64,000 nucleotides of DNA from Antedon mediterranea (taxonomy: Eukaryota; Echinodermata; Crinoidea; Comatulida; Antedonidae): positions 35,907,648-35,971,647 of the forward strand of contig NC_092673.1 of the NCBI RefSeq assembly GCF_964355755.1. The letters are read 5' to 3'. Positions 15,170 to 61,610 of this stretch are shown piece after piece (the first letter of the stretch is position 1; each line of letters opens with the position of its first letter). The translations under genes were made by a program, and so were the position numbers. Below the pieces are notes generated by a model. The model saw only the letters and a program-made list of their open reading frames with translations. It made no database searches and was not told the DNA's origin.

Positions 15170-15425
15170 AGACTAACGCCAATTCAAGACGTGCGTTAAC
15201 TCAAAACATTAGCTGGGTTTTACGTCAACTTAAAATGTTAGCCGAGTTATTACGTCAACTCAAGACGTAGTTTTACGTCAACTTAAACGATCGATGGGAC
15301 GTACGAAATCGTAGTCACTTCGTTACGTCAACTCACGACGTATTGGACCGTTACGTCAACTCACGACGTATAGGACCGTTATATCAACCCCAGATGTATG
15401 GACCATTACGTCAACTCACAACGTT
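15170..15425. repeat. Degenerate array of TTACGTCAACTCA(C/A)GACGTA units
   Basis: Roughly eight units of 25-45 bp built on 'acgtcaactcaCgacgta'. The last codons and stop of the sialyltransferase gene (15411-15425) lie inside the final unit, so the protein C-terminus is partly repeat-derived. The unit repeatedly contains TGACGT, the half-site of cAMP-response elements, which may be coincidence. Confidence 0.65.
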
Positions 15426-22621: not shown

Positions 22622-22952
22622 TACTTCTGTAGTTCTTACAACCTGCAACAAAATAACATTTATCAAATATTGTCCAAAAGTGTTGCGACGAACTCTTTCC
22701 GACCGTCTCTTTTTAACATTTTTGTTTTAGTTTTACTGTTTTAAACTAAAAACAATTATACCTTTTTTTTACGAGATTATGAAAAGTTTGATTGAATATG
22801 ACTCATTCGAACATTTTGGCGCTGGTGCTGAAAATGGTGTCAATATTTCATGTTTTCATATATCTTTATTTTCAATATTATACCAAAAAAGTGATCAAAA
22901 CTCTGAGATTAAAATGAAATAGTATAACATGGAAGGAGGCATCAAGAGTTGC

Positions 22953-23612
22953 ACACACAAAGGCACTAATATAACGAATACTAAAGTGTTGGTAAATAAG
23001 TTGGTAATGGGTTTGTATAGGTATCATGGTAGATATTAGGTCCGTTTCTTCTAACACAAAGGCATTAATATAACGAATACTAAAGTGTTGGTAAATAAGT
23101 TGGTAATAGGTTTGTATAGGTATCATGGTATGATATTGGTCCATTTCTTCTAACACAAAGGCATTAATAACGAATACTAAAGTGTTGGTAAATAAGTTGG
23201 TAATGGGTTTGTATAGGTATCATGGTATGATATTGGTCCGTTTCTTCTAACACAAAGGCATTAATATAACGAATACTAAAGTGTTGGTAAATAAGTTGGT
23301 AATGGGTTTGTATAGGTATCATGGTATGATATTCGTCCGTTTCTTCTAACACAAAGGCATTAATATAACGAATACTAAAGTGTTGGTAAATAAGTTGGTA
23401 ATGGGTTTGTATAGGTATCATGGTAGATATTAGGTCCGTTTCTTCTAACACAAAGGCATTAATATAACGAATACTAAAGTGTTGGTAAATAAGTTGGTAA
23501 TGGGTTTGTATAGGTATCATGGTATGATATTGGTCCGTTTCTTCTAACACAAAGGCATTAATATAACGAATACTAAAGTGTTGGTAAATAAGTTGGTAAT
23601 GGGTTTGTATAG
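22953..23612. repeat. Minisatellite, seven units of 96-99 bp
   Basis: Units containing 'aacgaatactaaagtgttgg' and 'aagttggtaatgggtttgta' with few substitutions. The period is mostly 99 bp, so long minus-strand frames stay open and repeat a 33-residue peptide. It starts about 300 bp upstream of the first sialyltransferase coding exon; no coding role is supported. Confidence 0.9.
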
Positions 23613-24027
23613 TTTGGACGATTGTGCTGTGTTTTTTTAATAATGTCAATTTCGTCACAAAGGATTTTGTTCCATGGGCATGGTTTTGGACTCCTGTGTG
23701 TGGAAGGCCTACTTGCAGCATACAATGTGAGTTAAGTGTGCATTTTAATGGAAATGCCTACCTAAAATGTTAACATTTGAAAATCCCGCTCCTCACCTCA
23801 AAATATGTTGCAGCACGCCACTTATAGTTATATTACGTCACAATAAAGTATTTCACGCCGATTCATCCTTATTTGGAATATATTGTTGTGACGTCAATTG
23901 TTTTTTACATCTCTGTGTCTAACCCACAAATATAATTAATTTGATACTCGTTGTGGTATGATAGAAGTGATACCAATAGTGTTTTGACTTAATAAGTTAA
24001 TAGTAAATAGTATGCTCTTCAAAACTA

Positions 24028-36272: not shown

Positions 36273-37422
36273 ATGAAAAGAAAACAATGCATAGTTCTGG
36301 AGCATTGCAGAGATTTCATAATTGAAAATATTGATGGTAAACGGCTTCTAGATCCAATGGTAGAAGGAGGCATTTTTAGTACAGATGATGATGATGAGAT
36401 CAGATCCAACCAAACAAGAAAGGTGACCGCAAAACTCCCAATTCTTGTGATCAGAAAGAACCTGTATAATAGATGGAGTAATAGTAGTGTTGGGTCGAGC
36501 AGTCAGGGGTAGAGGTTAGGGGTAAATAGGATATTACCCACCTTCATTGTCTTCTACCAACACAACATCAAAGAAATCTGGCTACTTGAAAAGATACCGT
36601 TTTGTTTCACTTTTTGACACCCACCCTTAGATTGCTACATATCTGTGCTATGGTAGACTAATTCCATTGCAGTTCAACTTCATTGTAACATACACAATCT
36701 ACAGCTATGATTGTTACCAAGCAAGATATGGCACCAAGACCCCTCATAGTTTATTGTTTCATTTTATTTAAAGGCATGCGCAGAAAGGTTCTACGAAAAG
36801 TTATTGCAAAGTAAACATGACAACACTTATGACACTTTTAAGACGGCTTTGAAAGTATGTAATGTGGACTACATTGTAAAAGAGCTTGAAAAATACGAGA
36901 AAAAGTATGAAAATGAACCAGAAACCAATCTTCCTGATCCCAGAAAAACAACTGGTATGTGCTATACCTTGAATTCCTACTTATTTTTCGTTTAAATTTT
37001 TGTTAAAGATGTATTGTCCGGGTCCCCCTGAAAAAAACTGTAATTTAAAGCAAAAAAAAAGAACAATGCAGCCAATGTGTTTTTGGTTGAATGATGGTTT
37101 TATATGAGAACATTTTTTTTTTATGGAAGAGATTAACTTTATCAAAATAACCATTGAAAGTCTGACCTAACTTATTTTCATTTTTCATGTTTTTGGGGAA
37201 CAATACATCTTTAATGTTTTTATTTCCTGAGATATTGCTCAGCCTATATAAAGACCAATGTGTTTTTAGGTGAGAATGTTTGTAACATTTAGTGGATGAT
37301 GATTTCATTTTTTTTCTCTTGCAGGTGGGAAAGTTCCATCTTCAAGTAATGTAAAGATTGTTGGGAGTAAAAACAGTGTAATTGTTGGTGGCAGTAACAT
37401 TTCTATTAACATTAATAACTAA
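36273..37422 (+). CDS. CARD protein A with C-terminal amyloid-like (RHIM-like) tail
   Basis: Exons 36273-36422, 36774-36954, 37325-37422; 142 aa. Residues about 5-90 read as a CARD. Seen: CRDFIIENI, LLDPMVEGGIF (helices 1-3), ACAERFYEKLL (helix 4), YDTFKTAL (helix 5), VDYIVKELEKYEKKY (helix 6). CARDs form helical signalling filaments by like-like binding. Intron 1 (phase 0) falls in the CARD after helix 3; intron 2 (phase 1) precedes the last exon. That exon encodes mainly a tail N119-N142, NVKIVGSKNSVIVGG then SNISININN. Alternating beta-branched residues with Gly and Asn resemble RHIM or other amyloid signalling motifs. Nothing enzymatic follows, so an adaptor or nucleator role is inferred. 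Its paralogue is CARD-B, 5 kb downstream on the same strand. No canonical RHIM tetrad (V/I-Q-V/I-G) is present, so 'RHIM-like' is a shape argument. Confidence 0.8.
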
Positions 37423-37908
37423 GACATGATATGCATACATTTATTATTTTACATTTTGGCAAATGTATAGAACATTAGGGTTGGTTTAATGTTTAAAATT
37501 ACATTTTAATTTTTTTATAACATACTAAAATCCTTGATCTGAGAACTGCTTATAATTATGTCCAACAAAAAAATATTTACTGTACTGTATCTCTGAGTTT
37601 TGTGTTAAAATTGCTATTTTTATATACATAGTATAATTGTTAAGCTCCATCTCTATTCCTTCTGTTGTTTAACAAATACCTTACAATTTGGTCTATGTTT
37701 TTCCCATCATTTTTGGTAACATTTTAAGTGGCGGTGGCTGGACAATTCATAAATCAATTACATCATGATTGGTCAAATTTCGTCATTGCGCTGTATGGAA
37801 ACTAAGGGCGTGTTCAGACATACTGAGTTATGTATTTGTATCGTACAAAGCTTTAACTTTAAACCATTGGTTTAAGCACCCTCATGTAAAAGACGGTTCA
37901 TGTTAGTT

Positions 37909-37987
37909 AGATGGCTGTATGTATCATCATGTATTGCTGCTACTCTAGATGGCTGTATGTATCATCATGTATTGCTGCTACTCTAGG
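37909..37987. repeat. 38-bp tandem duplication
   Basis: 'agatggctgtatgtatcatc' + 'atgtattgctgctactct' occurs twice without change. Confidence 0.9.
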
Positions 37988-38244
37988 TTCTAGATTGAGT
38001 TTTGAATTAATATTAGTAAAACGATAAATACTTTGGAACATATGGTGTTTCATATGTTTACTATTTCCGACTGACATAAAAAAGCTACAGACTTGGGCAA
38101 GTATATATTGTTGCATGCACCATACAGATATTACAATGTTAACTATTATCTGTATGCACACAGCAATGCAATATTTGATTAAAGAATACTTAATTCAATT
38201 TAAAAGCAATTTGCATTTTTCTTTTTTTACAGTACTGACAATAC

Positions 38245-38525
38245 TGAACTCATAAATATTCATAAGTCAATATGACTTCCTTTGTGAATTACTTTAACTA
38301 AATCAGTACACTAATAATAACTTAATTTATAAGCAATGCATTGTTCCTTTTTAAATACTTTGATTACAACATTTTTGTTTTCCATTAGACAATACTGAAC
38401 TCATAAATATTCATAAGTCTATGATGTGTTTTTCATTAGACAATACTGAACTCATAAAAATTCATAAGTCTATGATGTGTTTTTCATTAGACAATACTGA
38501 ACTCATAAATATTCATAAGTCTATA
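38245..38525. repeat. 54-bp repeat, three adjacent units plus an outlying one
   Basis: Units contain 'gacaatactgaactcataaa' + 'tattcataagtc' and, in the adjacent ones, 'tatgatgtgtttttcatta'. The first unit, near 38240, is separated by about 130 bp. Confidence 0.85.
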
Positions 38526-38703
38526 TGATGTACTTACGTTAGTACTGTATTGTACAATTTAATTTAAAAAAAAAACAATTTGCATTTCGTTTTTTTTTAC
38601 TTTAATAGTCTGTTCGCCCTTTTATTGTCCATTTATAGTTTTCTTTCCCGAATTATGAAAAACAGAAATAAAATATTAAAATGTTTTTATGTATGTCAAC
38701 AAA

Positions 38704-38830
38704 TAATTCTTGGTCCTCTCTCCATAACAGTCACATAATTCTTGGTCCTCTCTCCATAACAGTCACATAATTCTTGGTCCTCTCTCCATAACAGTCACAT
38801 AATTCTTGGTCCTCTCTCCATGACAGTTGT
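38704..38830. repeat. 32-bp repeat, four units
   Basis: 'ataattcttggtcctctctc' + 'cataacagtcac' repeated four times, the last slightly diverged. Confidence 0.9.
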
Positions 38831-39639
38831 CATATAATGCTTTGTATTTCTTTTCTTTTTTATTGTATGTATATGTTTCATATAAACAGTTTGTCTGAAA
38901 ATAAAATAAATTTCAATATTGTAATATCAGATGACAATTAAAAAGCCGAAGAATTGTATAGCAATATCTTTAGTGAGTTCCAGTCTGTATTTTAGGACAG
39001 ATAAAATAAATAGTTTTTCGTTTCCCTCTACCACAAAAAAAAAAAAAAAACAATTTTAAAGGCAAAAAAATAAGAGTAAACAAGAAATATTTCTTACAAA
39101 AAACGCTGCTCGCTTATTGAAAAATATTTTTGATTTAAAATGTTTTTGAATGTGTCATTTTATTGTCACATAATAGTTTTTTTACCCGAAAAAATGTAAT
39201 TTAAAGCAACAAATACTTAAATTGTCTGTCAGACAATGGTTTTTGGGTTTCTTTTCTTTTTTTATATGTTAATAAATATTATTTTTTTGTTACAGAAGTG
39301 AATACTCAATTTCTGTCACTTTAGTTAATTTTATTGCTAAGGTCAAGTCTGGGTTTCACTTCATCACCCTAGATATTTCAAGTGTGAAGTATCCTATTAC
39401 AAACACAAACTTTAATGGACTGTTTCGATAATAATTCAATGAATATCTGACAGTGAATTACAGTCAAAAGTCAGTATTATTATAGTCAAATGGGACTCAT
39501 AAATACCAGAAATGCTTTGGGATTTGTAATTTTAGCATGACATGTCCTAATAGACTCTTTTCCCAGACGTTTTTTTGGGTCTAGCAGCTGGAAATCTATA
39601 AATTATAGTGGAAAATTTCGCAAAACTGTCGTCCTTAAG

Positions 39640-40019
39640 CCCGGCGCACACTAGAGCTTTCGGCTGAGCCAACTGGCACGAGCAAAGATTATATAGCGCC
39701 GCTATACAATCTTTGGCACGAGTAACACTTGGCTCACTAAAAAATTTGCCGCAAACTGTGATCGCGTTCTGTTGGACGCACACTAAACGCCTCCAGTACG
39801 CGATTTTCTGATTGGATAATTACTTACTACGCTATACGGCACGCGCTGAAATATCATAATAAATCAGAAAATGTCATGCGCAGAGGATTTTTCTAGTGAG
39901 CATGCAGGAAGCTCACGTTCGGCGCACACTTGAGGAAAATGGCACGCGTGCCAAAAAATATTAAACACGATAGGTTGGCCAATTCCTCACGAAATCCCCG
40001 GCGCACACTGTGAGGCAAG
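39640..40019. mobile_element. CCGGCGCACACT repeat region hosting a 33-bp mini element
   Basis: Three 'cggcgcacact' motifs (about 39643, 39919, 40000) and one inverted 'gacgcacacta' (near 39776) bound palindromic segments of a further MITE-like family whose ends I cannot fix. Inside, at 39685-39717, is the mini MITE-A described separately. A minus ORF across this area (39547-39783) is not supported as a gene. Confidence 0.45.
39685..39717. mobile_element. 33-bp minimal MITE-A, 7-bp target duplication
   Basis: CAAAGATTATATAGCGC followed by CGCTATACAATCTTTG is just the two MITE-A ends joined. It is flanked on both sides by GCACGAG, a perfect 7-bp direct repeat. It looks like a complete insertion of an almost interior-less element. 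Confidence 0.75.
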
Positions 40020-40668
40020 CAAAGATTATATAGCGCCGCTACGCGGCGCAAGATAGGTAACTGTTGCCAAGCTCCTATCTTATAACACTACGCGCCCAGT
40101 AAATCCATGGACGCCATTCGGGCGGACAGGTTATTATTGTGATTTAAATGTAAATGGTTTAAATTTTGCGGTCCGCCTCGAAGTATCTGTGGTTAACCAT
40201 CTTTATGATTGATTCATGGAAAAGGGAAGAAATTATGTAAACAAAGTAAAATAAAAGTTTCTTTGGGATCTGGACACTTTCCGATTAATTCTGTGTGTTT
40301 ACATTGATATGTTTGGTTAGACAACTTCGTTCTTTAACCGAAACATCGTGGATATTGCCTTGACAACGACTTTATTCCGGTTCAAACTTGTCCGCCGGAA
40401 TGGCGTCCATGGATTAAGGGCCTTTCACACCTGCTCCGGCACGGTTCCGGTCCGGCGACGGCAAATCCAATCGAACGTCAATGTTTCGTTTTCACGCGGC
40501 TACGCGCATATCGATTGGTGCTTGGCCGCGTGGAGCGTCGTAACAACGAAACATTTTGTGTTCGATTCGCCGGACCGGAACCGTGCCGGAACAGGTGTGA
40601 AAGGCCCTTTACAAAGGTCTCACCCAGTTACCTATCTTGCGCCGCGTAGCGGCGCTATACAATCTTTG
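40020..40668. mobile_element. MITE-A copy 1, carrying a nested MITE-B
   Basis: Ends CAAAGATTATATAGCGCC and CGGCGCTATACAATCTTTG. Just inside each end is the hairpin gcgccgctacgcggcgc. The interior matches copy 2 (40685-41142) in reverse orientation except for the 192-bp MITE-B at 40417-40608. No ORF of coding character. Confidence 0.85.
40417..40608. mobile_element. MITE-B copy 1 (AGGGCCTTTCACACCTG ends), TTA duplication
   Basis: Inverted ends AGGGCCTTTCACACCTG and CAGGTGTGAAAGGCCCT, followed inward by the pair GGCACGGTTCCGGTCCGGCG. It is flanked by TTA on both sides, and the empty site (ccatggattacaaagg) is visible in reverse complement in MITE-A copy 2. A 3-bp TTA duplication is the PIF/Harbinger signature. 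Non-autonomous. Confidence 0.88.
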
Positions 40669-40684
40669 CGAGTAACACTTGCCT

Positions 40685-41142
40685 CAAAGATTGTATAGCG
40701 CCGCTAGGCGGCGCAAGATAGGTAACTGGGTGAGACCTTTGTAATCCATGGACGCCATTCCGGCGGACAAGTTTGAACTGGAATAAAGTCGTTGTCAAGG
40801 CAATATCCACGATGTTTCGGTTAAAGAACGAAGTTGTCTAACCAAACATATCAATGTAAACACACAGAATTAATCGGAAAGTGTCCAGATCCCAAAGAAA
40901 CTTTTATTTTACTTTGTTTACATAATTTCTTCCCTTTTCCATGAATCAATCATAAAGATGGTTAACCACAGATACTTCGAGGCGGACCGCAAAATTTAAA
41001 CCCTTTACATTTAAATCACAATAATAACCTGTCTGTCCGCCCGAATGGCGTCCATGGATTTACTGGGCGCGTAGTGTTATAAGATAGGAGCTTGGCAACA
41101 GTTACCTATCTTGCGCCGCTACGCGGCGCTATATAATCTTTG
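40685..41142. mobile_element. MITE-A copy 2, uninterrupted
   Basis: 458 bp from CAAAGATTGTATAGCGCC to the mirrored CTTTG end, head-to-head with copy 1, only 16 bp away. Copies 1 and 2 therefore form a large inverted repeat centred near 40676. Confidence 0.88.
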
Positions 41143-41813
41143 GTACTACTAGTACGTACTGGATACGCGCGATGACATGGATTGATGAGATCATCTACTT
41201 TCATCATCCCACGTGACCTATTCTCAACAAAGGGGAAATCCCCATGTCGCAGTTCATACAAACATTACATCATACAACATACTGCTGTGTGTACATGTAG
41301 TTGATTGTCATAATATAATAGTTAATATACGTTGTCAGAAGTTATTTTTTAGGTTGGTTTGTACAGTATTTGTATTTAATTCACCAATACTATTCCATAA
41401 TCAGTTACTACTTAAAAAGCAGGAGGCTCAAAGAGTGAGTTCACAAAACAAAGCTAGCCCAACTGAAGTGGCTTCAACAAGCCTCAAACATCTTGCTAGT
41501 GCTCTACTCTCTACACTTTTTGGGCTGCCAGTACACGCTAAACGGACCTGACTGAACTAGGCCTAGCGTAAAGCGTCCAACTGACAGTCGTTGTACTGGT
41601 TAGGCTTAAACTTGAGGTATGGTTAATTATGTGCAGTTAGTTGCTTGGAAAACACATTTGTTATTTTAGAAAGATTTTGTTCAGTTCAGTTACTATTTAC
41701 TATTATTAATACTGGAAATAAAATAATTTAATATTTATAGGCCTAACTAGTGATACATTTTGATCATTCTTACTTAATTCTTTTCTAGTGATATTTTTGT
41801 ACTGAGCACTATA
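41143..41813. other. Intergenic, nothing recognised
   Basis: Unique AT-rich sequence. The plus ORF at 41213-41551 has no recognisable domain and no splice support. Confidence 0.4.
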
Positions 41814-42444
41814 TTAAAGACCCCTTCCCTGCAATTTTGGACGTTTTTTGGAAAATAATACATATATCACTTTAAAAACATTAAACCATGTCATTCCTTG
41901 TCTTAAATGTACGTTTTATGATAAATTATGATAAAAAGTGAGAAACAATGCACTACCTAAGTAGCTCGCGGCGATCGACCTCTCATGGACGGTCTTAAGC
42001 CTAGCTAGGCTTAGTTTTGTAGGCCTAGCTGGTAAACATCGGTAACGTACGAACATCATACGCTTGCTATATATCTAGCCTGACGTTGTATAGTTGCTGC
42101 ATTAATTGTCTTTCTATTTTTGCCAGACTCCGTTGATACAAATTGAGGAAAACCCGGTATTTTCGCTGAAAAGTTAGGAGTCTTCCGTTTGTTTTGGCCT
42201 CATATCATGATCGATCAAAAAGTGGGCGAAATACAGGTGAAAAACAAAAATATCAATCCGCGCGCAATGCATTTTGGGATTTATAGCGGGCCGCTATAAT
42301 TATTAGAATCGACTTATTTTTCAAATTTTTAACTGTTTAAAGACGAAAAAAGTTATCGCAATAGGACCATAGTATTATTTTTACATTAAATATAGTTTGT
42401 GATCTTAAATTAGATCTAAAAAACGTAGGGAAGGGGGGCTTTAA
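41814..42444. mobile_element. TTAA-flanked MITE-D copy 1 (630 bp)
   Basis: Bounded by TTAA at both ends, with imperfect inverted ends AGACCCCTTCCCTGCAATTT and CGTAGGGAAGGGGGGCT. Near-identical copies lie at 58251-58885 and 61611-62243. TTAA target sites are typical of piggyBac and Kolobok elements. The GC-rich centre (gcgggccgctataattatt) is conserved. No transposase. It ends about 90 bp before the CARD-B start codon. Confidence 0.88.
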
Positions 42445-42537
42445 ATGAAAAACGATACTATTATGCAATAAGTTTATGATTTATGATTCATTTTCAGTAT
42501 ATAGCAGATTTTAGAGTTTTTAATTTCAAGTGTGACC

Positions 42538-43975
42538 ATGAATATGAGAGATAAATACCGTCTGACTTCAAATAGAACATATCTACTAGACAACGTGGAT
42601 GTACAGCATGTTTCTAATTGGCTTTTAAGTGAACAAATACTAACTGAAGATGAGCAAGAGGAGCTTTCTTCAATTTCTAACCCACGGGTAAGATGTCAGA
42701 ATAACATGCTAAACAAGTGTGACTTGCCCTATTTTTAAGCCAATGATTATTATATGCATTGACTGCTAGGATGATAGCTTGTATGATCAAAAACATTACC
42801 GGTCGAATCCATCATCTCTCATACAAATAGGTTTCGTAACAGCTTTTATCCAGCTGCCATTCGACCACCGAATGCTTTTCCGTATACCGTACGAGTGATG
42901 TGATACTTTGTAATCTATTTTTTAAAAATTTATTTATCTGTTTTTGTATATCTCAGATAAGATTTCTATGTATATTTTATATGCAAATGACAATAAATGG
43001 AAGTAATTTTCCACTGTTTTTTTTTGTCCTAGGATCGTTGTGCTAGGTTACTAAATTGGCTACCAAGAAAGGGGCCATCTGCTTATGGCAACTTCAGAAG
43101 AAGCCTTGACGGAAGCCCCACTCAAATGCATATTGGTAATGTACTTGATGCAACAGATACATCATCAGTAAATGCAACTGGTATGTAAAGGTTTACATAC
43201 GAGAACATTAAATAGGTTTACATTTAAAAAAAACTAGTACATCTAATTCAATTCTAACCCTAATTTTGATAGGTGCTCATCTCTTTAACCTTTGTCTACA
43301 CTATAAAACTTTATGTGACAAAATAGTGTGATTGTTTGTTTTATCTTTATACTGGGTGACCTCTTCAGTCAAAGACTGATCTCCCAGAGGGCCCAGTTGG
43401 TGATCAGTGGCTGTGATGTACTAATACACCGGGGTAACCCCCTACTCGTCTCAAAAGATGTACTAGGTTCTTTAAAGTGCACACGAGCAAGTTGTGTACA
43501 CTGGACCTACGGTTTATACTGTAGTCCTTATCCGAGAAGACTCGTTCTACCACCAGAACCATGGAGTGAGTGAGCCTCGAACCCCTGCCGATGTTATGGC
43601 TACGTGATTACGGTTCCACTGTCTTAACCGCTCGGCCACTCACTCACTTGATGTGCCCATGGTATTGATATGACATCCCATATATGGGCACATCACATAT
43701 TTTTGTCACATAAAGTTTGATAGTGTAGATAGACAGGTAGACAGACCTTAAAATATACTATTACATATAATTTAAAGATTTTAATGGGGTTTTTTTTTCT
43801 GCCAACAGACACATCAGATGCAAGACCAGTAAGAGTAAATGCATCCGCAGCACAGCAGTCACAACATCCACGACGAGGTGTAGGAGCATCAGCAGGATAT
43901 AACATACAAGTCTCTGGAAGCCACAACGTAGTAGTGACAGGAGGCAATGGAAATATTATTAACATCAACAGATAA
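42538..43975 (+). CDS. CARD protein B with C-terminal amyloid-like (RHIM-like) tail
   Basis: Exons 42538-42687, 43033-43180, 43809-43975; 154 aa. The CARD covers about residues 8-90: RTYLLDNVDVQHVSNWLLS, QILTEDEQEEL, then RDRCARLLNWLPRKG (the usual 'kar.LLd.L..kg' block) and YGNFRRSL. As in CARD-A, exon 1 encodes exactly 50 residues and ends in phase 0 inside the CARD; intron 2 is phase 1. A low-complexity linker (D100-G129, rich in Ala, Ser, Arg) leads to a tail Y130-R154 containing NIQVSGSHNVVVTGG then NGNIININR. The tail aligns with that of CARD-A (GSxN, V.V, GG, then I.IN). IQV followed by G and N is close to, but one residue longer than, a RHIM core. AATAAA at 44178-44183 is a good poly(A) candidate. 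Intron 2 holds a MITE with a nested SINE. Function inferred: oligomerising adaptor. Confidence 0.82.
43284..43735. mobile_element. MITE-M copy 6, split by a SINE
   Basis: The left part (cctttgtctacactataaaa, 43284-43332) and right part (gatgtgcccatgg to gatagtgtagatagacagg, 43650-43735) are one MITE-M copy separated by a tRNA-derived SINE. It lies in CARD-B intron 2. Confidence 0.75.
43333..43649 (-). mobile_element. tRNA-derived SINE
   Basis: On the minus strand it starts with a tRNA-like head, GAGTGGCCGAGCGGTTAAGA (A box, Leu/Ser-like), and a B box ggGGTTCGAGGCtc at about 43572-43582. About 240 bp of unrelated body follow, with an imperfect palindrome around 'cactgatcaccaactgggcc'. Inserted in MITE-M. 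Confidence 0.75.
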
Positions 43976-46421: not shown

Positions 46422-47337
46422 GGCCCGGGGGCGCGATTTTTTTTTTCGTACATAAGTTGGGGACCCCCTCATGAAACGTCACAAAATAAACATGAATAAT
46501 TCATCAGTTAAATTTTCTTGTTCCGTGTGCACCCAAGCGTATAGCAACAAGAAGTGATTACAGTAGTTTACACAAGTGCGGTACGATTCTAGGCCTATCT
46601 CCGCTGTGGTTGCCGCGTGCGATTTCATAATAGAATAGCGGCGTTTTGTGTGGATTGTCGAAATAATCAGCCTTTAGTTTATGGTGTGTTTAATATAATT
46701 TATTACTAAAGAATTACGTGTTAAAATTATAGTTTCTATTGATACTATTAGGCCTAAAAACTATTCTCTAAACCCATGTCTATTCTAGTAGTAGCTGTGT
46801 TGGTGTGTGTGACGTGTGTGTTAGAGTCAGCAAAATTAAACAATAAACATTACACAAAAATACATTTTTTATTCTCGTGGGTCTAACCTTCCCATCTCAT
46901 GTGTTCATATACGCGCAGTTCCTTTGATTACATGCATATTGTTTGATAATAAAATAGCAGAATTTAAAAAATACAGTACACAAATTATACACATTCTTTA
47001 TTCTTGTGGGTCTAAGCTTTCTTTGGGCTATGTCCAATGAATTACTACTTAGTGTAATGTCTTGCCTAGCTGTCGATTAGCCTCGACTCGACACATTTTG
47101 CATAGTGGTGTGTGTGTGTATGAAGAAGAGTGCGCGAAGGCAATCACGTGAATTGACTTAGAATCCTAGGCCTACTGTAAAAGTATCGTATCGCAGTTGT
47201 GTAATCACTTCTTGTTGCTATACGCTTGGGTGCACACGGAACAAGAAAATTTAACTGATGAATTATTCATGTTTATTTTGTGACGTTTCGTGAGGTGGTC
47301 CCCAACTTATGTACGAAAAAAAAAATCGCGCCCGGGG
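46422..47337. mobile_element. Inverted-repeat element just upstream of DCLRE1A
   Basis: Arms of about 140 bp: 46422-46565 (gggcccgggggcgcgattt, acaagaagtgattaca) match 47197-47337 in reverse with few mismatches. The 630-bp interior has 'tattctcgtgggtctaa' twice and no ORF of coding character. The right end lies about 85 bp before the DCLRE1A start codon, so the gene's 5' UTR or promoter must overlap or abut it. No clear target duplication. Confidence 0.75.
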
Positions 47338-47422
47338 CCGGAAATCCCATTTAAGTATTTGGCGCGAAATATTAATAGATTGTATATTGGAGGAACATAA
47401 TATAATTGTTTCACAAAATACA

Positions 47423-50400
47423 ATGAATATGGACTACAGCAGCAATGATGAAGATATTTGGGATTACAAGCCAGCGGCAAGGAAGCCTCAGGGCGGTGAC
47501 AGGTCGGCATCCATCACAATCGACCAACAACGTAGTGAAAAGTGTGGAGAACGACGTAGGCCTAGGAGGCCAAAATCCATACGACGTAAACACAGTTCTT
47601 CATCAGGAGGAGGAGGCGGTGCCAGCGGTGATGTAACACGTAGTAGACATAGGCCTAGACCATATAGCGATGTTGGGACACCTGATAAACACAGTCCTCC
47701 GACCACATTCAAAGCTGGAACATGTAAATCTAAATCAAAATCTACTTCCAAAGAAAACAATAATTCTACTAGGCCTACTCATGGAGTAAAGACTCCATGG
47801 CCTACTACTACTAGTCAGATTAATAATAATAAAAGGGAGAAGATAAATGATAATAATAATAAAGCTGATGATGATGATAATTTCTGTCCAAATTGCCAAC
47901 TTCCACTTTGTCTCCTGACAGTTCAGACACCGACATGGCATGTTGAGCAATGTCTTAATCAGAGGACTGGTTTATTGAATATCAACAAAAAAGGTATGAA
48001 TGAAAAGTTTTTATTGATTTTGTGCCTGTCTAATATAGGCTACTAGATTATAATATTTACTATTAAGTTCGCTGAAGTTGAGAAATAAATGTAATTAATA
48101 TCTATTTACTACAATCGTACTTAATAATACCAGAAAGGTGGCAATCCTGTTTATACTGACACTCTATACACTCTTAACATAAATTGCATAAATCAAATTC
48201 AAATAAACTAATTTGTCATTTGTTCACTTTCTGTTCTTTTTTTTAGAATGCCCAAGTGGACTTGACTGTGACTCTACCATTGTAGTACATTATAGCAATT
48301 TCACTCACAAACTACTTGCTATCGTTAGGGCTGGTGGGGACGTTTCAGATTTCTCTGAAATAGATGAACCATCGTCCAATATAAAAAAGATAGAAGCATT
48401 GTTTAGCTCAAAAAACACCTTTCAAAATCATGCAAAGGGAATCTCAAACAAGACTAAACCGCAAGGCATCAATAACAATTGCTTGCACCATAATAAGATT
48501 TCTTCAACTCAAAGTAGTCTGTCATCAAAACAGGAATTGTCAAGTCAGAGACACCAGAAGTCCAGTCAGTCAACGCCAAGGAAATTTGTTGTCGGAAAAT
48601 GTAGAAAGACTTCTGAAATGAGCGAAGCTTCATGCTCCCAGCAGCCTTCAATTTTATCCTTTTTTAAACCTACTCAATCACCAAAAGAAAAAACCTTAGA
48701 AAAAAAGACAAAAAACAAGACTGAAAAAGATAATGATTTTGAATTTGAAATACAATATTGTTCATCTGATGATTCGGTGGATTGTATTTTAATGGATGAA
48801 GTTGTTCCATATTATGAAGAAGACGAATCATGTGAAGAAAAAAAGATTTTTGATTTAACAGATGATGTTTGCTTGTATCAAAATAAATATGAAGTTGATG
48901 CTTTATCTTCTCCTTTAATTCTGTCTGAATGCAGTACAGTGCAATACAATAGTCCTGGTGGTGAAATTCACAATGAAAACAATAAGAGGCAACTTACATC
49001 TGATGAGGATAACGTAAGTGAAGAAGATATATTTTCACCTTGTCCAAAGAAAACCGCTATGATGTCATCACCCAGTACTCCAAGTAGTGTTGATACATTT
49101 TATTCAAATAAGGAAATCTTTAGTTTGGAAAAAGAGGACATGTGCCCAATACGAATTGAAATGAAAACGGAGAAACATGACATGAATGATTTGATTAACA
49201 TAGAAGAGACTGATAATGATCTGATTAACAGAGAAGAGACTGATAATGATCTCATTAACATAGAAGAGACTGATAATGATCTCATTAACATAGAAGAGAC
49301 TGATAATGATCTGATTAACATAGAAGAGACTGATAATGATCTGATTAACATAGAAGAGACTGATAATGATCTCATTAACATAGAAGAGACTGATAATGAT
49401 CTCATTAACATAGAAGAGACTGATAATGATCTGACTAAAAACATAGAAGAGACTGATAATGATCTCATTAACATAGAAGAGACTGATAATGATCTGATTA
49501 ACATAGAAGAGACTGATAATGATCTCATTAACATAGAAGAGACTGATAATGATCTGATTAACATAGAAGAGACTGATAATGATCTGACTAACATGGAAGA
49601 GACTGATAATGATCTGACTAACATAGAAGAGACTGATAATGATCTGATTAACATAGAAGAGACTGATAATGATCTGATTAACATAGAAGAGACTGATAAT
49701 GATCTGACTAACATAGAAGAGACTGATAATGATCTCATTAACATAGAAGAGACTGATAATGATCTCATTAACATAGAAGAGACTGATAATGATCTCATTA
49801 ACATAGAAGAGACTGATAATGATCTCATTAACATAGAAGAGACTGATAATGATGATCTCTGTATGGTTAACATTGGTGAAAATCTAATTGTTGATGCTCT
49901 AGTACCGTCCAGCTGTTTTGACATTAACAGTAATAAAACTGCTACATTCTCTTCAATATTGGAGCCTACGCATGAGAGCCATGATGTAAATTCTGCTGTA
50001 AAGGAAGATATAGTGAATGATGATAGTTCATCACAGGTTACCTGTTCTCCTAGGCAAGACCCATCTACTGACGTTAAAGTAGAATGCAATACCGGCTTTG
50101 AAAATGTTCCATTTGATTTTGAATACTTTGATACCAAAGAAAATCTTGAAGAAGAAAAAGTTGGAATCGGCGATGATATAGTACTTTCGACCAAAAATAT
50201 ATCGTTGGAAAAAGCTACCAACTCTGATTTTCACACTGATATATTAAAAGAAGAAATTTTTAGTGAATCGTCAAATGAATTTTTTGATTGCCAGGAAACT
50301 ATTTTCAATAGCTTTAAGAAGGTTGATAACATCAAACAAGATTCTCGTACAGATTCTTCCCAATGCTCCTTCAGTGATTCCGTCAACAATTCATCTTGCG

Positions 50401-53400
50401 TTCTGAGCAGGCTGGCATCTCAAGTCTCCTATGATAAATTCATACCATTTAAAAATTATTTTTTTGGCTCAAAAAAAGAAACATCAACAAACTCAAATGT
50501 GCAAAATAACAATGAAGTTACAGAGAGTACAAGTCTATCTTCAAACATGGCTGGAAACTCTGCAGATTCCAATAATTTTGCAAGACATTTTTCAAATGCG
50601 TCAAACTCGGGAAACAATGGGAAACAAAACAAGTGGTCACGTTCTGTATGGAGTAACCCTCATAATAGACATTGTCCATTCTACAAAAAAATGCCAGGTA
50701 CAGTTTAAAATGCGACTTCTGCGCCACTTTCTTGATATTTTTTTTTCAAGTTGCATTTTCTCTAACTGATAACTTCCGATTTATATTATGTAGTTTACTT
50801 TAGACAGAATGCACGACTACAGTCATTTTTTAATAGATAATATACCATATTTATATAGGGCCCTTTTTGTGAAAAATGTTGCTATAGATGTATTTTTAAA
50901 AGTTATTAAATTTTTTTTTCAGACACATCGATTGCTGTTGATGCATTCAGCTATGGCACCATTCCTTGTATCAAAGCTTATTTCCTGAGTCATTTCCATG
51001 CAGATCATTATGGAGGTCTTACCAAACATTTTAAACACCCAATTTACTGCAGTAAGGTAAACAAGCATAGCTTAATATTGGTTGACACATTGTCTTTAGA
51101 TTACTAGTTAAAAAACTAGTTTAACAAGTATAGCTTGACTGTACTTACTAGTTTAACAAGTTTAGCGTGACTACTTTTTTTACAGGAAACTGGGAATCTT
51201 GTGATTTCCAAGATTAGTGTTGCTAAGACTTTGGTTAACACACTTCCAATGAACACACCATGTATTGTAGAAGGTGTACAAGTTACACTACTACCTGCTA
51301 ATCAGTAAGTCCAGCTCTATATTTAAACTTGCTATTTTGTTCAATATCAATTCCTTTGTTAATTATTAAAATAGAGTCAACTCTGCCAATACCAGACTCT
51401 CTGAAAACCAAAAACTCCCCCTGACTTTTCTTGTCCAAAAGGTTCATTTTTACCATAAAAAAACACTTTCCAGAAAACCAGACATATTTGGCCAGCCCAA
51501 AGGTTTCAGATATTGTGAAAGTTGACTCGCTCTACTTATGTCTCAGCAGACTTAAGTTTCTTACTTTTCTGAGGCCAAGAGGAAGTCAACCACCTTCCCA
51601 ATTGAAATGGTATAATTTGTTTATGTATGTGTAACTCTGATAGGTAAATAAAGTAAAATCAAATCAGTCCCTTCACAGCATACCTCGGAAACCATTTATT
51701 AAAACATTAACTGAATGTCTGAATTATCACTAAACCATGTACAATTGTGTTTTTTTTATTATAGTTGTCCCGGAGCAACGTTGTTCCGTTTCTGTTTGAA
51801 AAATGGTAAAGTTTACCTTCACACTGGGGACTTTAGAGCAGATCCCACCATGGAAGATTATCCTGCTCTTGTTAACTGCCATGTGAACACACTTTATCTC
51901 GATACTACGTAAGTATAAGTGTGAACATGACACTATGTAATGTAATGTACAAGTATTAACATCTGAACATGTGATACTAATATGTTAGATTCATGTGAAC
52001 AAACTATACTGAATGTTAACCAATTTATTCTATAATTCAGCAATCATCTCATTCAATGTGAATCCTACATTTTTATAGATACTGCAGTCCTGAATATAGA
52101 TTTCCAAGCCAACAAGAAACTTTGCAATATGTTGTTGATGTGGCTAGAAAGCATGTTGAGGCCAATGAACGAACTTTAATAGTGTGTGGAGCTTATACTA
52201 TCGGTAAAGAAAAGGTGTTTTTAGGTAAGAAATGTATGAAAATGTAAAGCTTTTTTAGTACTATACTATAACTGTTATTACATATGTGAAGTACAGTAGT
52301 TCAGTAGTATTTATTGGTTAATTATCTACCTTTAAGCTTTCTTTAATTCTCTACCTTTAAACTTTCTTTAATTCTCTACCTTTAAGCTTTCTTTAATTCT
52401 CTACCTTTAAGCATTCGTAACTCATACAATTTCTTCTCCTTTAAATCTCTTTTGAAAAAACACCTGTCTCTCTCTGATTTTATTTCTTTTTATCCTTCAT
52501 TCATTGTTGGCCTACTGTATATTTATATATATATATATTAATTTTTTTATCTTTGTTAATTTTGTGTTTTTATAGTTTATTTTGTATTTTCTGTTTGTAT
52601 TGTTTGAGGGTCCCTAATGATCAGCTGATGCTTGATGGATCACCCTCATAAAATATTGTTGAAATAAAGAAAAATTAATTTCTACCAAACAGTATGATGC
52701 TACTACACGAATTATGATATATCTTTAAATAAGAAATTTTTCCTACTTTTTCCTACAAATATAATGAATGCTGGGAATAAATAATGGTGTAAACATAAAT
52801 TATTATAAATGAAATAGAATTTGAGTGTACTTGAGATGATGCATCTGTTTTTAGTCTCTTTCAGTTAACATTATTATTCGGTTTAACATTATTTTAAATA
52901 TTTTCTCAGCAATAGCCAAAGCCCTTGCCTGCAAAGTGTGTATAACCCGTGACAAGCAAAATGTTCTGAACTGCCTTGAAGATGAAGATATGAAAAGTTA
53001 CTTAACATGTTGTAAGACTGCAACAAGACTTCACGTTCTGCCGATGGTGTCGATTACACATCCGGTATGTGCACATTTTATGAACCTGAAATACTGTCCT
53101 TTATTTATTTATTTGTTTTTTAAATTTCATGCGCATTCAACAGCGAGCACAAACTCGCCAATTACAGGATGGATAAACTACTTTATAATTTATCGTGCTT
53201 GTAAACTAAGTCTCATTTGAGGCTTAGGGAGTGGAGTTAAATGAGTTGTGAGTTACAACCCAGTTCAGGATTGAACCCCGGACCTTGGGATTTGAAGGCA
53301 AGCATGTTAACCACCAAGCTACAGCTCCACTATGATTAGTTAGTATTATCAAGATCATTACAAACTATAAATAAGAATAATGTTAAAATTGATAATTTGT

Positions 53401-54258
53401 GTTTCATTTCTTTTTTTCCACAATTAATAACCCGCTTAATAAAACTGTAAATACAGTATTAACAATTTTATAATAATATTCCAGAAATTGAAAGAGTATA
53501 TGAGTCGATTAAACCAACGCTATACACAAGTGGTTGGTATTAAACCCACAGGGTGGACACACAGTAAGAAAACTACTGGTCTACTGGATATTAAGCCATC
53601 AGTCAGTGGCCTCAATTTTATTTATGGTAAGAAATCTATGAACTTATTGCTTTTAATTAATTTTCCTTATTTCTTGAGAAATTACATCTTTTTTTTTCAA
53701 TTTTGTTTTTAATATGCCATTTTAATGTCGCATATAAGTTATTCACTTTGACCAAAAACTGGATCCGAAAAAAAAATTATTTACCAGAAAAAAATGTAAT
53801 TCAAAGCAAAAAGTACTTAAATTGTCTGTCAGACAATGGTTTTGGGTTAAAATTAAACATTTCTTTTGTCTTTGTATAAGTGAAATAATTATTTTTGTGA
53901 ATAACTTTATTAAAACTGCAAAATGTCCTATTTAAAGTTTGATTTTATTAATCTTCATTTTTCATGTTTTTTGAAGACAATACATCTTTAAATAAATGAA
54001 TATTTTGTTGTGTTCTTAGGAATACCTTACAGTGAACATAGCAGTTACAGTGAACTGGAACGCTTTGTGAGATTCATAAAACCTGACAAGATTCAGCCAA
54101 CCGTGAACGTTGCTAAGGAAGATTCGAGGAAGAAAATGAAAAAGATCTTTGAATCTTGGATGAAAGAGGATGTTACTATGCCAACCAAACGAAAATGTTC
54201 TACCATAGCAACCATTGATACTTTATATGGTAAAAAGGTGAAGAATGAAGAAAATTGA
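47423..54258 (+). CDS. DCLRE1A: DNA cross-link repair protein 1A (SNM1A), nine coding exons
   Basis: 5'-to-3' exonuclease of the metallo-beta-lactamase/beta-CASP family that digests past interstrand crosslinks, in the nucleus. Exons: 47423-47993, 48247-50697, 50923-51056, 51186-51304, 51765-51908, 52079-52224, 52910-53064, 53485-53626, 54020-54258; all GT-AG, phases match, 1366 aa. N-terminal DEDIWDYKP matches vertebrate EEDIWEYK. UBZ4 finger: C155, C158, H173, C177. PIP box: Q323-F330 (QPSILSFF), for PCNA. Residues about 505-727 are 22 decapeptide repeats. CPFYKKMPG opens the catalytic half. Metal ligands: HFHADH (H1031, H1033, D1035, H1036), H1092 (NHCPGA), D1114 (HTGDFRAD), with D1138 (LDTTYCSPEY). 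[11 protein letters not shown] and [11 protein letters not shown] (H1294) are beta-CASP/DRMBL signatures. All key residues are present. Start: ATG 47423 or 47429. Possible poly(A) signal AATAAA at 54601. Confidence 0.96.
49186..49854 (+). repeat. Coding minisatellite in DCLRE1A, 22 x 30 bp
   Basis: In-frame units 'atagaagagactgataatga' + 'tctgattaac' give [10 protein letters not shown] repeats. Variation is mostly ctg/ctc, att/act, one I-to-R, one I-to-M, and one inserted AAA codon (Lys) after unit 8. Each unit reads hydrophobic LINI followed by acidic EETDND, similar to a SUMO-interacting motif, with Thr in a CK2-like T-x-x-D site. The function is inference. Confidence 0.95.
52320..52680 (+). 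mobile_element. 3' end of a non-LTR retrotransposon in DCLRE1A intron 6
   Basis: After a run of 'ttctctacctttaagcttt' repeats, the sequence reads like the last FK..LK-type residues and 3' UTR of a CR1/L2-group element. It ends 'gatcaccctcataaaatatt' + 'gttgaaataaag'. The 'gggtcaccctca' block also closes the fragment at 27915-28707. Confidence 0.6.
53090..53340 (-). mobile_element. tRNA-derived SINE in DCLRE1A intron 7
   Basis: The minus strand reads GGAGCTGTAGCTTGGTGGTTAACATGC..., then a B box GGGGTTCAATCCTG at about 53265-53280. The body runs to the left, ending in 'tttatttatttatttg'. Confidence 0.7.
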
Positions 54259-54340: not shown

Positions 54341-54547
54341 AAGCTTGGTTTCCACTAGAACAAAACGCAGCGATGTATTGGCGCAAAGTGCTGTATTGCG
54401 TAATAACAAGTGGGAACCGATGACGCAATAGTGCTGCAAACATTGCTGGTTTGATTTCACGCAGGCAGGGGCAAACAATTATTAGAAGAGAATTTTCTTA
54501 CGTTGCGTAGATTGCGTTACATTGCGTCGCTATTGGGAACCAAGCTT
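54341..54547. mobile_element. MITE-C copy downstream of DCLRE1A
   Basis: AAGCTTGGTTTCCACTAGAA to TCGCTATTGGGAACCAAGCTT, with CGCA-rich interior. It starts 82 bp after the DCLRE1A stop, so it is probably within the 3' UTR. It holds an internal 'caagtgggaaccga' suggesting an older nested end. Confidence 0.8.
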
Positions 54548-54609
54548 AAACAGCGTATGCTGACAGTCATGGGTCTCAATGTATTTATGATATATTCTAT
54601 AATAAACAA

Positions 54610-54970
54610 TACTGTGATACTGATCCACATTCTGCAATACTGTGATACTGATCCACATTCTGCAATACTGTGATACTGATCCACATTCTGCAATACTGTG
54701 ATACTGATCCACATTCTGCAATACTGTGATACTGATCCACATTCTGCAATACTGTGATACTGATCCACATTCTGCAATACTGTGATACTGATCCACATTC
54801 TGCAATACTGTGATACTGATCCACATTCTGCAATACTGTGATACTGATCCACATTCTGCAATACTGTGATACTGATCCACATTCTGCAATACTGTGATAC
54901 TGATTCACATTCTGCAATACTGTGATACATCCACATTCTGCAATACTGTGATACTGATCCACATTCTGCA
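54610..54970. repeat. 28-bp minisatellite, about 13 units
   Basis: 'actgtgatactgatccacat' + 'tctgcaat' with almost no variation; one unit has a 4-bp deletion. The period is not a multiple of three and all three minus frames are open, so overlapping ORFs arise without coding. Confidence 0.95.
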
Positions 54971-57331
54971 CTGATTATTAAGATAATAATTCCTTGTTAA
55001 ACTGATCATGTGTATTCATCTTAATGTGGATAAGTCCATAATTCTTCCCTTATCATCCACTCAAAACTGATACATTAGTATTGTTACAAAACAGCCTTTT
55101 CTTAAAGAATTGACAAATAGAATAAAACAGATTTTATATACAGTATATAGTTACAAAAGATTATAGTTCACCTTAATATAAATATGTAATGTAGATTAGA
55201 TTATGATTATATAAGATAATAGTAAATTAATTTAAATATTACATATCAAACAATGCAATAGATTTTGTGCTGATTATTCCCAGTGTTTACTGTTTTGTTA
55301 TATACCAGTGTACACAATTATCTACCTTAATAATATAGCTGATGTAGCTATGCTACATAATACTTGGATGGGTATTCTGTCTTTTTCCTTTTACAGTACT
55401 AATAAAGGACTAAACAAAGAATTTAAGTTGTCATTTTCGAAGTTGTCCTTTTTTTTCAGTTGATTATTTGTAAATTCCATTCAATGATGACAGCATTAAA
55501 CAAAAAAGTCCTATGCTTCATACTATTATTACTTAATATCTGTGGAATAATTTATTATCTATATACATAAATGGTTTTCTCAGAAGAATAATATATTTAT
55601 AAATTTTATAAATAAACTGCATGATTGCTAAACCCTCTAATCGGCCCCGCCATGTAGAATATTATCAAGGACATACAAAGGTCAACGCCCGTTACCAAAA
55701 CATTGAAACGTGACTTGTCAGTCGATGATGCAATGTTCACCATTTGAACGTTCTAGAGATTGTTTCAAATGTGGTTATTAAATTATAGAATTCATTTAGA
55801 TGTGTTAGATAAAATTTCAGATGTGTAAAATCTGTTTTTATAATGCATTTACTTATTTTATTTGAATATTTAAGGAAGAAATTTAGTGATTTTTATTAAG
55901 TACGTTCTTGTTACTCTTGGATACATAGACGTTAGAGCTAAAAATAAGAATGTCACGTGGTAACTCGTGACCAATGACGCAACAATCCTGCTTTGACTGG
56001 AAAAGACGGGCTGGACTTGGACACTACTGAGAGAATTATATAATTCGGAGAATTATATAATTCGGAGAATTATATAATTCGGAGAATTATAACAAAAATA
56101 GGAACTTCAATTTGTTTTTTTTATTGCATTACTGTTAAATTACTTGATATAAAGTTATATAATACATATTAGATATATGTTTTAACATTTACCTATACAA
56201 ATTACTGTTAGTTTTGTCATTAATTTCAATGATTTGTTATAAATTCTCGTAACCGTAAGCAATCAATCAAGGCGGTTCGTAGGGACGAGCCCCCAAAATG
56301 ATGACATCTGATTGGCCATATGCTAATTTTGCCTCATCAGCATATTTATCGAGATATCACTGACAGGACCATAACAAATCCTCCTCCGAAGAAAAAATAA
56401 TATTTTAGGGGAAATTCCACTGTTTTGTTCCGAGGAAAAGAGTTTGTTTAATATTTGTCGTGAATTAAATTATAACAACTGTAGTACATTGAGGATTTAT
56501 TTAATATTGTTCTGAGACTGGAAATTGTTGAAATTAAAGGTAAGAATATCAGTAATCACAAGGTAAATAAAGAGTATAAAATGTAGTGCTGTGTCATTCG
56601 ATCGAGGCCGTGAAAAGGTGGTTGTGTTGTCGTATAAAAACACAAACAAAGGCTGCTGTGCATGTACAGCAGTTGAGACTGCCAACCCAAAGGTTTAGAC
56701 TACCAGGCCTAGCCAGCCCTAGTACAACAAGTTCAAGTATACTCTAGACTTCGTCAAATAGCCAGGTGAATGCCAAATGAATCTGAATCTTGTTTTTGTA
56801 ATAATTGTTTAAATATAACCATTTTTTTTAATCACAGACATTATTATTATTATTATTATTAATAATAAATTTAAAAAATAATAAATTTAATTCTATCCGT
56901 TTTTATAATTTTGTTTAAAAGATTAAAGAAGTCTGCACCTAATCTTCATTATAAGTATGTGGCATTATTTTCATTAGTTAGAATGCAATTCTTCGTAAAT
57001 TACTATGTTTTGGGCCTGGCCTAGAGTAGTACTAGTATAACCATAATCACCAATATTATATATCTAACCATAATAAATATACACTGCAGTACTTTTCCAT
57101 ATTTTGTGTGTTAGTGGCCTACACTGTAATACTATATCTAATGAATTTTGGGAATTAAAAGTGGTATTTCTGAAAACATATGCTTTTGACAGGTTGACCC
57201 ATTTCTCACATCAAACAGCTGGTGGGAGGAAACAATCTGCTGATACACAATCATTACAACACCCACTACTGTGTAACATTAAATGAATGGTGCACAACAT
57301 TAACAAATAGATGCACTGATTATGTTTATAC
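54971..57331. other. Intergenic, nothing recognised except a short array
   Basis: No gene seen. 56033-56092 holds four units of 'gagaattatataattcg', each a palindrome (GAATTATATAATTC). 56230-56420 is less AT-rich and could be a promoter region, but I see no defined motif. Confidence 0.4.
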
Positions 57332-59195: not shown

Positions 59196-60130
59196 ATTTA
59201 ACATTAATAATGTTGTAGTAAGGTACAAAATAACAATAATGTTGTAGTAAAGAACATGAATAACATTAATAATGTTATAGTAAGGTACAGGAATAACATT
59301 AATAATGTTGTAGTAAGGTACAGAAATAACATTAATAATGTTGTAGTAAGGTACAGGAATAACATTAATAATGTTGTAGTAAGGTACAGGAATAACATTA
59401 ATAATGTTGTAGTAAGGTACAGGAATAACATTAATAATGTTGTAGTAAGGTACAGGAATAACATTAATAATGTTGTAGTAAGGTATAGGAATAACATTAA
59501 TAATGTTGTAGTAAGGTACAGGAATAACATTAATAATGTTGTAGTAAGGTACAGGAATAACATTAATAATGTTGTAGTAAGGTACAGGAATAACATTAAT
59601 AATGTTGTAGTAAGGTATAGGAATAACATTAATAATGTTGTAGTAAGGTAAAGGTGAGGTGAGTCCCGTGTTCTCTGAACGTAGGTGAATGAGCTGTTAG
59701 GAGCTCATTGTACTAAGCCTCGGCATTATGTGGTAGGGTGGCCAGTTCCTTTCCACGCCGCCTTTTTTCTCCCTAGTATTTTCAACCAGGTACTCATTTT
59801 ACAGCTGAGTGAACTGGGAGTTGTCGGGCATTGAACCCGGGTCTATCTGTACGACAGTCAAGTGTCCTAACCACTCGGCTATCCAACTCCTGTAGTAAGG
59901 TACAGGAATAAAAATAATAATGTTGTAGTAAGGTACAGGAATAACATTAATAATGTTGTTGTAAGGTACATGAATAACATTAATAATGTTGTAGTAAGGT
60001 ACAGGAATAACATTAATAATTTTGTAAGGTACAGGAATAACATTAATAATGTTGTAGTAAGGTACAGGAATAACATTAATAATGTTGTAGTAAGGTACAG
60101 AAATAACATTAATAATGTTTCAGTAAGGTA
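59196..60130. repeat. 33-bp minisatellite split by a SINE
   Basis: Units 'aggtacaggaataacattaa' + 'taatgttgtagta', about 13 before and 7 after a SINE at 59651-59889. Each unit has the near-palindrome aacattaataatgtt. Period 33 keeps frames open on both strands, which explains the long repetitive ORFs. Confidence 0.93.
59651..59889 (-). mobile_element. tRNA-derived SINE with intact acceptor stem
   Basis: On the minus strand it begins GGAGTTGGATAGCCGAGTGG (A box), has B box GGGTTCAATGCCC, and closes the tRNA-like head with CAACTCC, pairing all seven bases of GGAGTTG. The body follows to the left (ctgagtgaactgggag; tactcattttacagctgag). Flanked by 'tgtagtaaggta', but this is also the array unit. 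Confidence 0.8.
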
Positions 60131-60317
60131 CCGAATATTTTATAAACATGATGGATACAAGGTATATTTTGAAATTTAAATGTTAATCCATTTTGTGAAA
60201 AAGGTTGAAAGTTTGTATCAGCTAAAAGGTCAAGGACATGTTTGTTATTGTTTTGTATGAGAGGAAACTATACTGCACACTATGGGTCTGTACTGTTAGC
60301 AATCAAAAATGGAAATA

Positions 60318-60600
60318 TAACAGTACTGTATACTGTAGTACTGTATACTGTAGTACTGTATACTGTAGTACTGTATACTGTAGTACTGTAGTACTGTATA
60401 CTGTAGTACTGTATACTGTAGTACTGTATACTGTAGTACTGTATACTGTAGTACTGTATACTGTAGTACTGTATACTGTAGTACTGTATACTGTAGTACT
60501 GTATACTGTAGTACTGTATACTGTAGTACTGTATACTGTAGTACTGTATACTGTAGTACTGTATACTGTATACTGTAGTACTGTAGTAACCTGTATACTG
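60318..60600. repeat. 15-bp minisatellite, about 18 units
   Basis: 'gtactgtatactgta' in tandem, with a few units shortened to gtactgta. Self-complementary (tactgta/tacagta), hence open frames both ways. Confidence 0.95.
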
Positions 60601-61610
60601 TTAGGTTAGCAATAAAAAATGGATACATAAATCAAATATATGTACTGCTGTAATGTATATGAGAACCCAAGACCACTTCTAAGTTCTACCACATATAATA
60701 ATTAATAGCATTTAATAATTCTTTTAGCCTGGTCCATATAATTATTATTAAGACATAAGACATACTTTATTATCTCCAAAAAAAAAAATTTCAGGAGCTT
60801 GAAAAAGAAACAGATTAAAAATCAGTCCTAAACACACCAAAATAATTTTTGGCTTTGACATGACATGCAATCAAATTTACATACACAGTGACATTTTGAA
60901 ATCTGTATGAATTTGCAAGTCGTATGATTATTTACTCAAGGGTGAACACTATTTATTAATTAAGAAAGTAATACAGATTATTATTTTTTTTTTTTTCAAA
61001 TAAAAAAGATGAGTCATCAAATCATCAATAATATTTTTTATAAACAAATTAATAGATTAATAATGTTTTGTACAGATATTTTTACTACGATTTAAATACA
61101 TTCAACAGAAAATGAAATATTTCTTCTAAGAGTACAGTGGAAAATATGAACCTGTTGGATTATACTAGCAAAACATTGTGCAATCCCAGCTAGCAATTAT
61201 TTTCATTTCCATACAATGGTTGAGCAAGAACAACCCTGGATTGGGCTGTGCTCGCTTTGCAGGTCAGGTCAGGAGAGATGAATAATAATTGTTTTCATGC
61301 TTCAGTGCACATGTACAAAACACTCTGTAGCTGGGTCAAAACACTTTACCAGCTGACTGATGTAAACAAAGGCTTTCGGTTCAGGAAGATAGGGTATTTT
61401 ATAGTGAATATCTCTATGATTTCAGGGTAGGAAGATAGACTATTTTTGTAGGTAGGATCAAGTATATAGCTAGGAAGGAGAGGTGAGATAATAATATCTG
61501 TTTAGAATAAGCATTTTAGAAACAGTGTTAATCCAAAATAATTACTCTAATTAATAATTATTAATTATGTTGGACTAGCTATAAAACAACCATACCATCA
61601 TGTTTTAAAC
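60601..61610. other. Intergenic, nothing recognised
   Basis: AT-rich; no gene, array or mobile-element end seen. The 60-codon plus ORF at 61248 has no support. Confidence 0.4.

Follow-up and report, generated by a model that had tools for sequence, protein, structure and literature searches.

A tandem pair of small CARD genes shares a patterned, possibly RHIM-related C-terminal tail

Introduction

The CARD is a domain known to form signalling filaments, and proteins that unite a death fold and an amyloid motif are already known, namely RIPK1 and Drosophila Imd, the latter being a small non-enzymatic adaptor in which a death-fold domain is accompanied by an RHIM-like amyloid motif (cryptic RHIM). 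Here, we describe two genes, A and B, located in a 64,000-nucleotide stretch of the Antedon mediterranea genome (C4:35907648-35971647, hereafter the window), each of which encodes a CARD followed by a short C-terminal tail that is common to both. The parent genome comprises 354 Mb in 18 contigs, and the intron-containing genes of the window are animal-like. A search for COX1, intended to place the lineage, gave no match in this assembly, in which no mitochondrial gene was present. Based on their sequences, A and B may be stand-alone, minimal CARD adaptors with an RHIM-related and probably homotypic tail, through which the two proteins would co-assemble, and we put the probability of this reading at about one in two.

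RHIM-like motifs occur in flies (PMC7889193). Vertebrate RHIMs are defined by a V/I-Q-V/I-G core tetrad, and echinoderms, tunicates, and cnidarians are reported to lack RIPK1 containing this tetrad (PMC12119088). Ambulacrarian RIPK1 is also reported to lack the RHIM (PMC11507063). As monomers, RHIMs are disordered, and they stack upon assembly (PMC12133306). Adjacent genes with a common short terminal amyloid-type motif, used for signal transfer, have been described for the fungal NWD2/HET-S and bacterial BASS systems (PMC7889193).

Results

Two CARD genes with matching tails

Gene A (36273-37422, plus strand) encodes a protein of 142 amino acids, and gene B (42538-43975, plus strand) a protein of 154 amino acids. 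They lie on one strand, are separated by 5.1 kb, and consist of three coding exons each. Their features are as follows:

36273..36422, plus strand: gene A, first coding exon, encoding the N-terminal half of the CARD; 150 nt, open frame, ends in phase 0, donor GAAAG/gtgacc
36774..36954, plus strand: gene A, second coding exon, encoding the C-terminal half of the CARD and an acidic linker; 181 nt, ends in phase 1, acceptor ttaaag/GCA, donor AACTG/gtatgt
37325..37422, plus strand: gene A, third coding exon, encoding the tail GKVPSSSNVKIVGSKNSVIVGGSNISININN up to the stop; acceptor cttgcag/GTG, tail aligns with the gene B tail
37345..37419, plus strand: gene A, core of the tail (25 residues); strands NVKIV, SVIV, and ISIN, separated by the turns GSKN and GGSN
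42538..42687, plus strand: gene B, first coding exon, encoding the N-terminal half of the CARD; 150 nt, ends in phase 0, donor CACGG/gtaaga
43033..43180, plus strand: gene B, second coding exon, encoding the C-terminal half of the CARD and a linker; 148 nt, ends in phase 1, acceptor gtcctag/GAT, donor AACTG/gtatgt
43809..43975, plus strand: gene B, third coding exon, encoding a linker of low complexity followed by the tail SAGYNIQVSGSHNVVVTGGNGNIININR up to the stop; acceptor gccaacag/ACA, tail aligns with the gene A tail
43898..43972, plus strand: gene B, core of the tail (25 residues); strands NIQVS, VVVT, and NIINI, separated by the turns GSHN and GGNG

In both genes, the tail forms the extreme C-terminus. 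The tails SNVKIVGSKNSVIVGGSNISININN (A) and YNIQVSGSHNVVVTGGNGNIININR (B) align without gaps and are identical at 11 of 25 positions (44%). Both show three short hydrophobic strands, with GSxN and GG turns in between and the last strand ending in I-N-I-N. The residues that do not vary between A and B are N, G-S, N, V, G-G, and I-N-I-N. This similarity is not due to chance; the gapless score was reached by none of 200,000 composition-preserving shuffles, and among the 26,778 open 25-residue windows obtained by reading the window in six frames, the B tail scored 7.1 standard deviations above the mean when compared to the A tail, while the next, unrelated one scored 4.3 standard deviations above it. 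A recurrence of strand, N, and G positions with a period of 8 was weak in both tails (p ~0.04 and ~0.07, uncorrected). The initial annotation had proposed two spliced CARD genes with a patterned common tail, and the Pfam CARD matches in both proteins, the GT-AG introns, and the gapless 11/25 alignment bear this out. As to the pattern itself, the N, GSxN, GG, and terminal I-x-I-N elements hold, but the V-x-V element does not align exactly, since B has V-V-V-T opposite S-V-I-V in A.

Comparison of the tail with RHIMs and search for other carriers

The RHIM of human RIPK1, IQI-GAYNYMEIGG, the letters of which were verified against PDB entries, aligns in register with VKIVGSKNSVIVGG and IQVSGSHNVVVTGG when a one-residue gap is allowed (by shuffling, p = 0.0016 for A and p = 0.03 for B). 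The RHIM-type G-x-x-N turn between hydrophobic strands is present in both tails, as GSKN between NVKIV and SVIV in A, and as GSHN between NIQVS and VVVT in B. AlphaFold2 modelled the last exon of gene B as an unstructured monomer with low confidence (pLDDT, the predicted local distance difference test score, of 55), which is compatible with the monomer disorder of RHIMs but uninformative.

For the genome-wide search of the tail, five degenerate DNA patterns were combined with protein searches, and other CARD genes were covered to their 1.5-kb flanks. The two main patterns gave 17 and 40 matches, fewer than their reversed controls (22 and 69), and the only matches among these with a C-terminal motif behind a CARD were A and B. 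Protein searches with each tail against the genome returned only the tail itself, at a sensitivity too low to connect A with B. Profile PF12721 (Pfam RHIM) reached at best 18.1 bits across the genome, below its cut-off of 20, and did so at unrelated places. Further patterns, written for the third strand, for GD/GN variants, and for a canonical RHIM of the RIPK1 type, gave no convincing carriers in the genome. The initial annotation had also envisaged the tail on NLR, TIR, or kinase proteins, and none of these was found to carry it in the 354-Mb genome at the sensitivity reached. When 84,980 prokaryote species genomes were scanned for the exact pattern, there were 23 matches, which by estimate is around the chance expectation; several were RTX-type repeats and none was C-terminal. 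The viral contigs scanned for the tail pattern contained no confirmed relative. Thus, within the genome and the prokaryote and viral sequences scanned, the tail is private to the A/B pair.

Several individual matches were examined and set aside. A COBL-like actin regulator (C1:34715341; L056/L080) contains GYNVNVVGSANIVEMDEG in a proline-rich region, near the tail core, and the proline-rich gene L033 contains PIEVNGTGNVVVNGDGATNI; because the reversed controls outnumber the pattern matches, both were taken as chance. The matches to the RIPK1-type pattern that were examined turned out to be minisatellites, an Ig domain, a DCTN6-like hexapeptide, and a reverse-transcriptase-like frame. In three minisatellites, C10:2431700-2433000 (L110), C2:38822400-38823800 (L109), and C2:34738900-34739700 (L112), the open frames read as tandem repeats, either RHIM-like (IAIGIVNV and IAIGQQNN) or short and related to these (MGDNIV). 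Such RHIM-like repeats in minisatellite frames are probably due to chance, and they could mislead motif scans.

A number of these results weigh against an RHIM-related tail that co-assembles. Neither tail is matched by PF12721 at E<=10, and the core tetrad is absent, A reading V-K-I-V-G and B I-Q-V-S-G, with one surplus residue before the glycine. Unrelated open frames of the window score as well as or better than the A and B tails against the RIPK1 RHIM, so the resemblance to RIPK1 can only be taken as a lead. No third tail carrier, and hence no upstream or downstream tail partner, was found in the genome at the sensitivity reached.

A possible though less likely alternative is that the tail is a conserved non-amyloid element, for example a C-terminal peptide engaging its partner through beta-strand addition or a small segment that caps the fold, on otherwise ordinary BCL10/RAIDD-type CARD adaptors. 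The unmatched RHIM profile, the absent tetrad, and the lack of other carriers in the genome speak for such an element, as does the fact that the tail ends precisely at the C-terminus in both proteins, in the fashion of a docking peptide. However, its composition of Gly, Asn, and beta-branched residues and the fixed spacing of its turns resemble a beta-arch repeat more than a docking peptide, and the side chains outside the strands are mostly unconserved. As a known domain the tail was not recognized either, with no Pfam match at E<=10 and none in a profile search of the PDB.

Divergence of the CARDs and lower divergence of the tail

Both CARDs exceed the curated cut-off of the Pfam CARD profile (PF00619, 23.9 bits), with 27.2 bits for A (E=4e-6, residues 9-89 of the joined protein) and 37.1 bits for B (E=3.2e-9, residues 9-76). 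The closest solved structure for the CARD of A is Apaf-1 (E=0.02), and BCL10 was not among its matches to solved structures. For the CARD of B, RAIDD is the closest (E=6e-4), followed by BCL10 (E=0.012). When compared to each other, the two CARDs share 22% identity across 79 aligned positions, and over their full lengths the two proteins match weakly (20% identity, with E=1e-4 for this single pair). Both CARDs are interrupted mid-domain by an intron, whereas residues 3-96 of B match at least one other CARD of the genome (C9:24350750-24351031) inside one exon, so that A and B form one lineage. Since their first coding exons of exactly 150 nt and their intron phases (0 and 1) agree, A and B are, as judged from gene structure, old tandem paralogues. 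The last five bases of exon 2 and the donor that follows (AACTG/gtatgt) are also identical in the two genes.

The difference between 44% identity in the tails and 22% in the CARDs, together with the finding that 6 of the 11 identical tail residues are encoded by synonymously different codons in A and B, suggests that the tail is under selection. The proportions of synonymous and nonsynonymous differences (pS/pN) were 0.66/0.40 for the tail and 0.84/0.54 for the CARD, values that come from two sequences only, lie near synonymous saturation, and hint at constraint without proving it. Because the tandem paralogy of A and B is clear, and conservation was measured on a single pair of sequences, the shared tail could also reflect mere paralogy, that is, descent from one ancestral exon without special constraint, in which case it would vary in other species. 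We consider this improbable, given that the linkers of A and B are almost wholly different and the CARDs have diverged to the extent described, yet the tail has kept its residues despite synonymous turnover.

Structure of the gene models

All introns of A and B are GT-AG and the reading frames are intact, and the predicted joining of exon 3 to the CARD exons is supported by the splice sites, the matching phase, and the paralogous gene structure. An artefact of the gene models or a pseudogene, with a tail exon separate from the CARD exons, is therefore very improbable, the first donor of gene A (gtgacc) being weak but all six exons being open, all introns GT-AG, and phases and first-exon length agreeing between long-diverged paralogues. 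An in-frame TAG is located two codons upstream of the ATG in gene A, and eleven codons upstream in gene B. Just 5' of this stop there is a candidate splice acceptor in both genes, ...TTTTTTCAG ending at 36252 in A and ...TTCATTTTCAG ending at 42497 in B. Because the stop follows the candidate acceptor, no N-terminal coding extension is expected, provided that the acceptor is used. The simplest reading is that each gene has an untranslated 5' exon upstream and encodes a stand-alone protein instead of being the 3' part of a larger gene, in agreement with the stand-alone CARD proteins that had been proposed initially.

Other features of the window

Between genes A and B, at 40020-41142, lies a nested foldback element, in which one pair of arms measures 298 nt (99% complementary) and another 110 nt (97%), both placed around further inner inverted repeats. 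Downstream, 47294-54255 (plus strand) is probably an SNM1A/DCLRE1A-like DNA-repair gene, with a zinc-finger-like exon and metallo-beta-lactamase-like exons recognized by eye; it includes an 833-aa open frame (48207-50705) with approximately 20 copies of a 10-residue tandem repeat. At 15414-16262 (minus strand), two open frames appear sialyltransferase-like by eye. Tandem-repeat arrays at 22881-23757, 54520-54996, 59196-60176, and 60226-60631 stay open in a single frame or in several, and on one strand or both.

Discussion

The CARDs of A and B have diverged while their tails stayed alike, and for this reason we propose that the two proteins co-assemble through their tails. In the monomer, the tail would be disordered yet able to stack, forming a strand-turn-strand-turn-strand beta-arch with the GSxN and GG motifs as turns. 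A and B would then meet by homotypic contacts between tails, and their co-assembly would place two CARD-binding branches, one of the caspase type and one of the BCL10/RAIDD type, on a single nucleated scaffold. Alternatively to a shared scaffold, one protein of the pair might seed the other. The expression of A and B, the assembly and amyloid character of their tails, the partners of their CARDs, and a function in immunity or cell death are what we infer from the genes. A stronger version, in which the tail is a metazoan amyloid-type motif distinct from the canonical RHIM, carried by tandem mini-CARD adaptors that template each other and thereby cross-connect two CARD pathways, is tentative and in our view less likely than not.

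If their tails are divergent RHIM-like motifs, A and B would be a small, concrete, and testable candidate for the way in which an animal lacking RIPK1 or RIPK3 in this role links filaments of the death fold with an amyloid template. The tails are short enough for peptide synthesis, which makes the question of their amyloid character cheap to settle. The initial annotation was aware of no metazoan family described with this exact layout. A CARD followed by an RHIM-like C-terminal tail is indeed undescribed in the open-access literature searched, and as a two-gene pair it appears to be new, but the wider combination of death fold and amyloid motif has its precedents in RIPK1 and Imd.

Among CARD adaptors, BCL10 and RAIDD resemble A and B in being small and having an N-terminal CARD. 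However, RAIDD carries a death domain, and neither of the two has the A/B tail. Homologues of BCL10 have a common proline-rich C-terminal motif (PMC5978004), a stretch that is absent from the ends of both A and B. The NWD2/HET-S and BASS pairs combine an NLR with a membrane-active effector, whereas A and B are two CARD adaptors, and no tail-bearing NLR was found in the genome. The RHIMs of RIPK1 and RIPK3, which form the necrosome, are like the A/B tails short, with a strand, G-x-x-N, and a strand in nearly the same register, followed in RIPK1 by GG, and RIPK1 also resembles A and B in having a death-fold domain and an RHIM in one protein. The A/B tails differ from these RHIMs by their third strand, I-N-I-N, at the extreme C-terminus, and the A/B proteins have no kinase. 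In Drosophila Imd, which was compared by description only, the order is reversed: its death domain is C-terminal with the motif upstream, whereas in A and B the CARD is N-terminal and the motif C-terminal.

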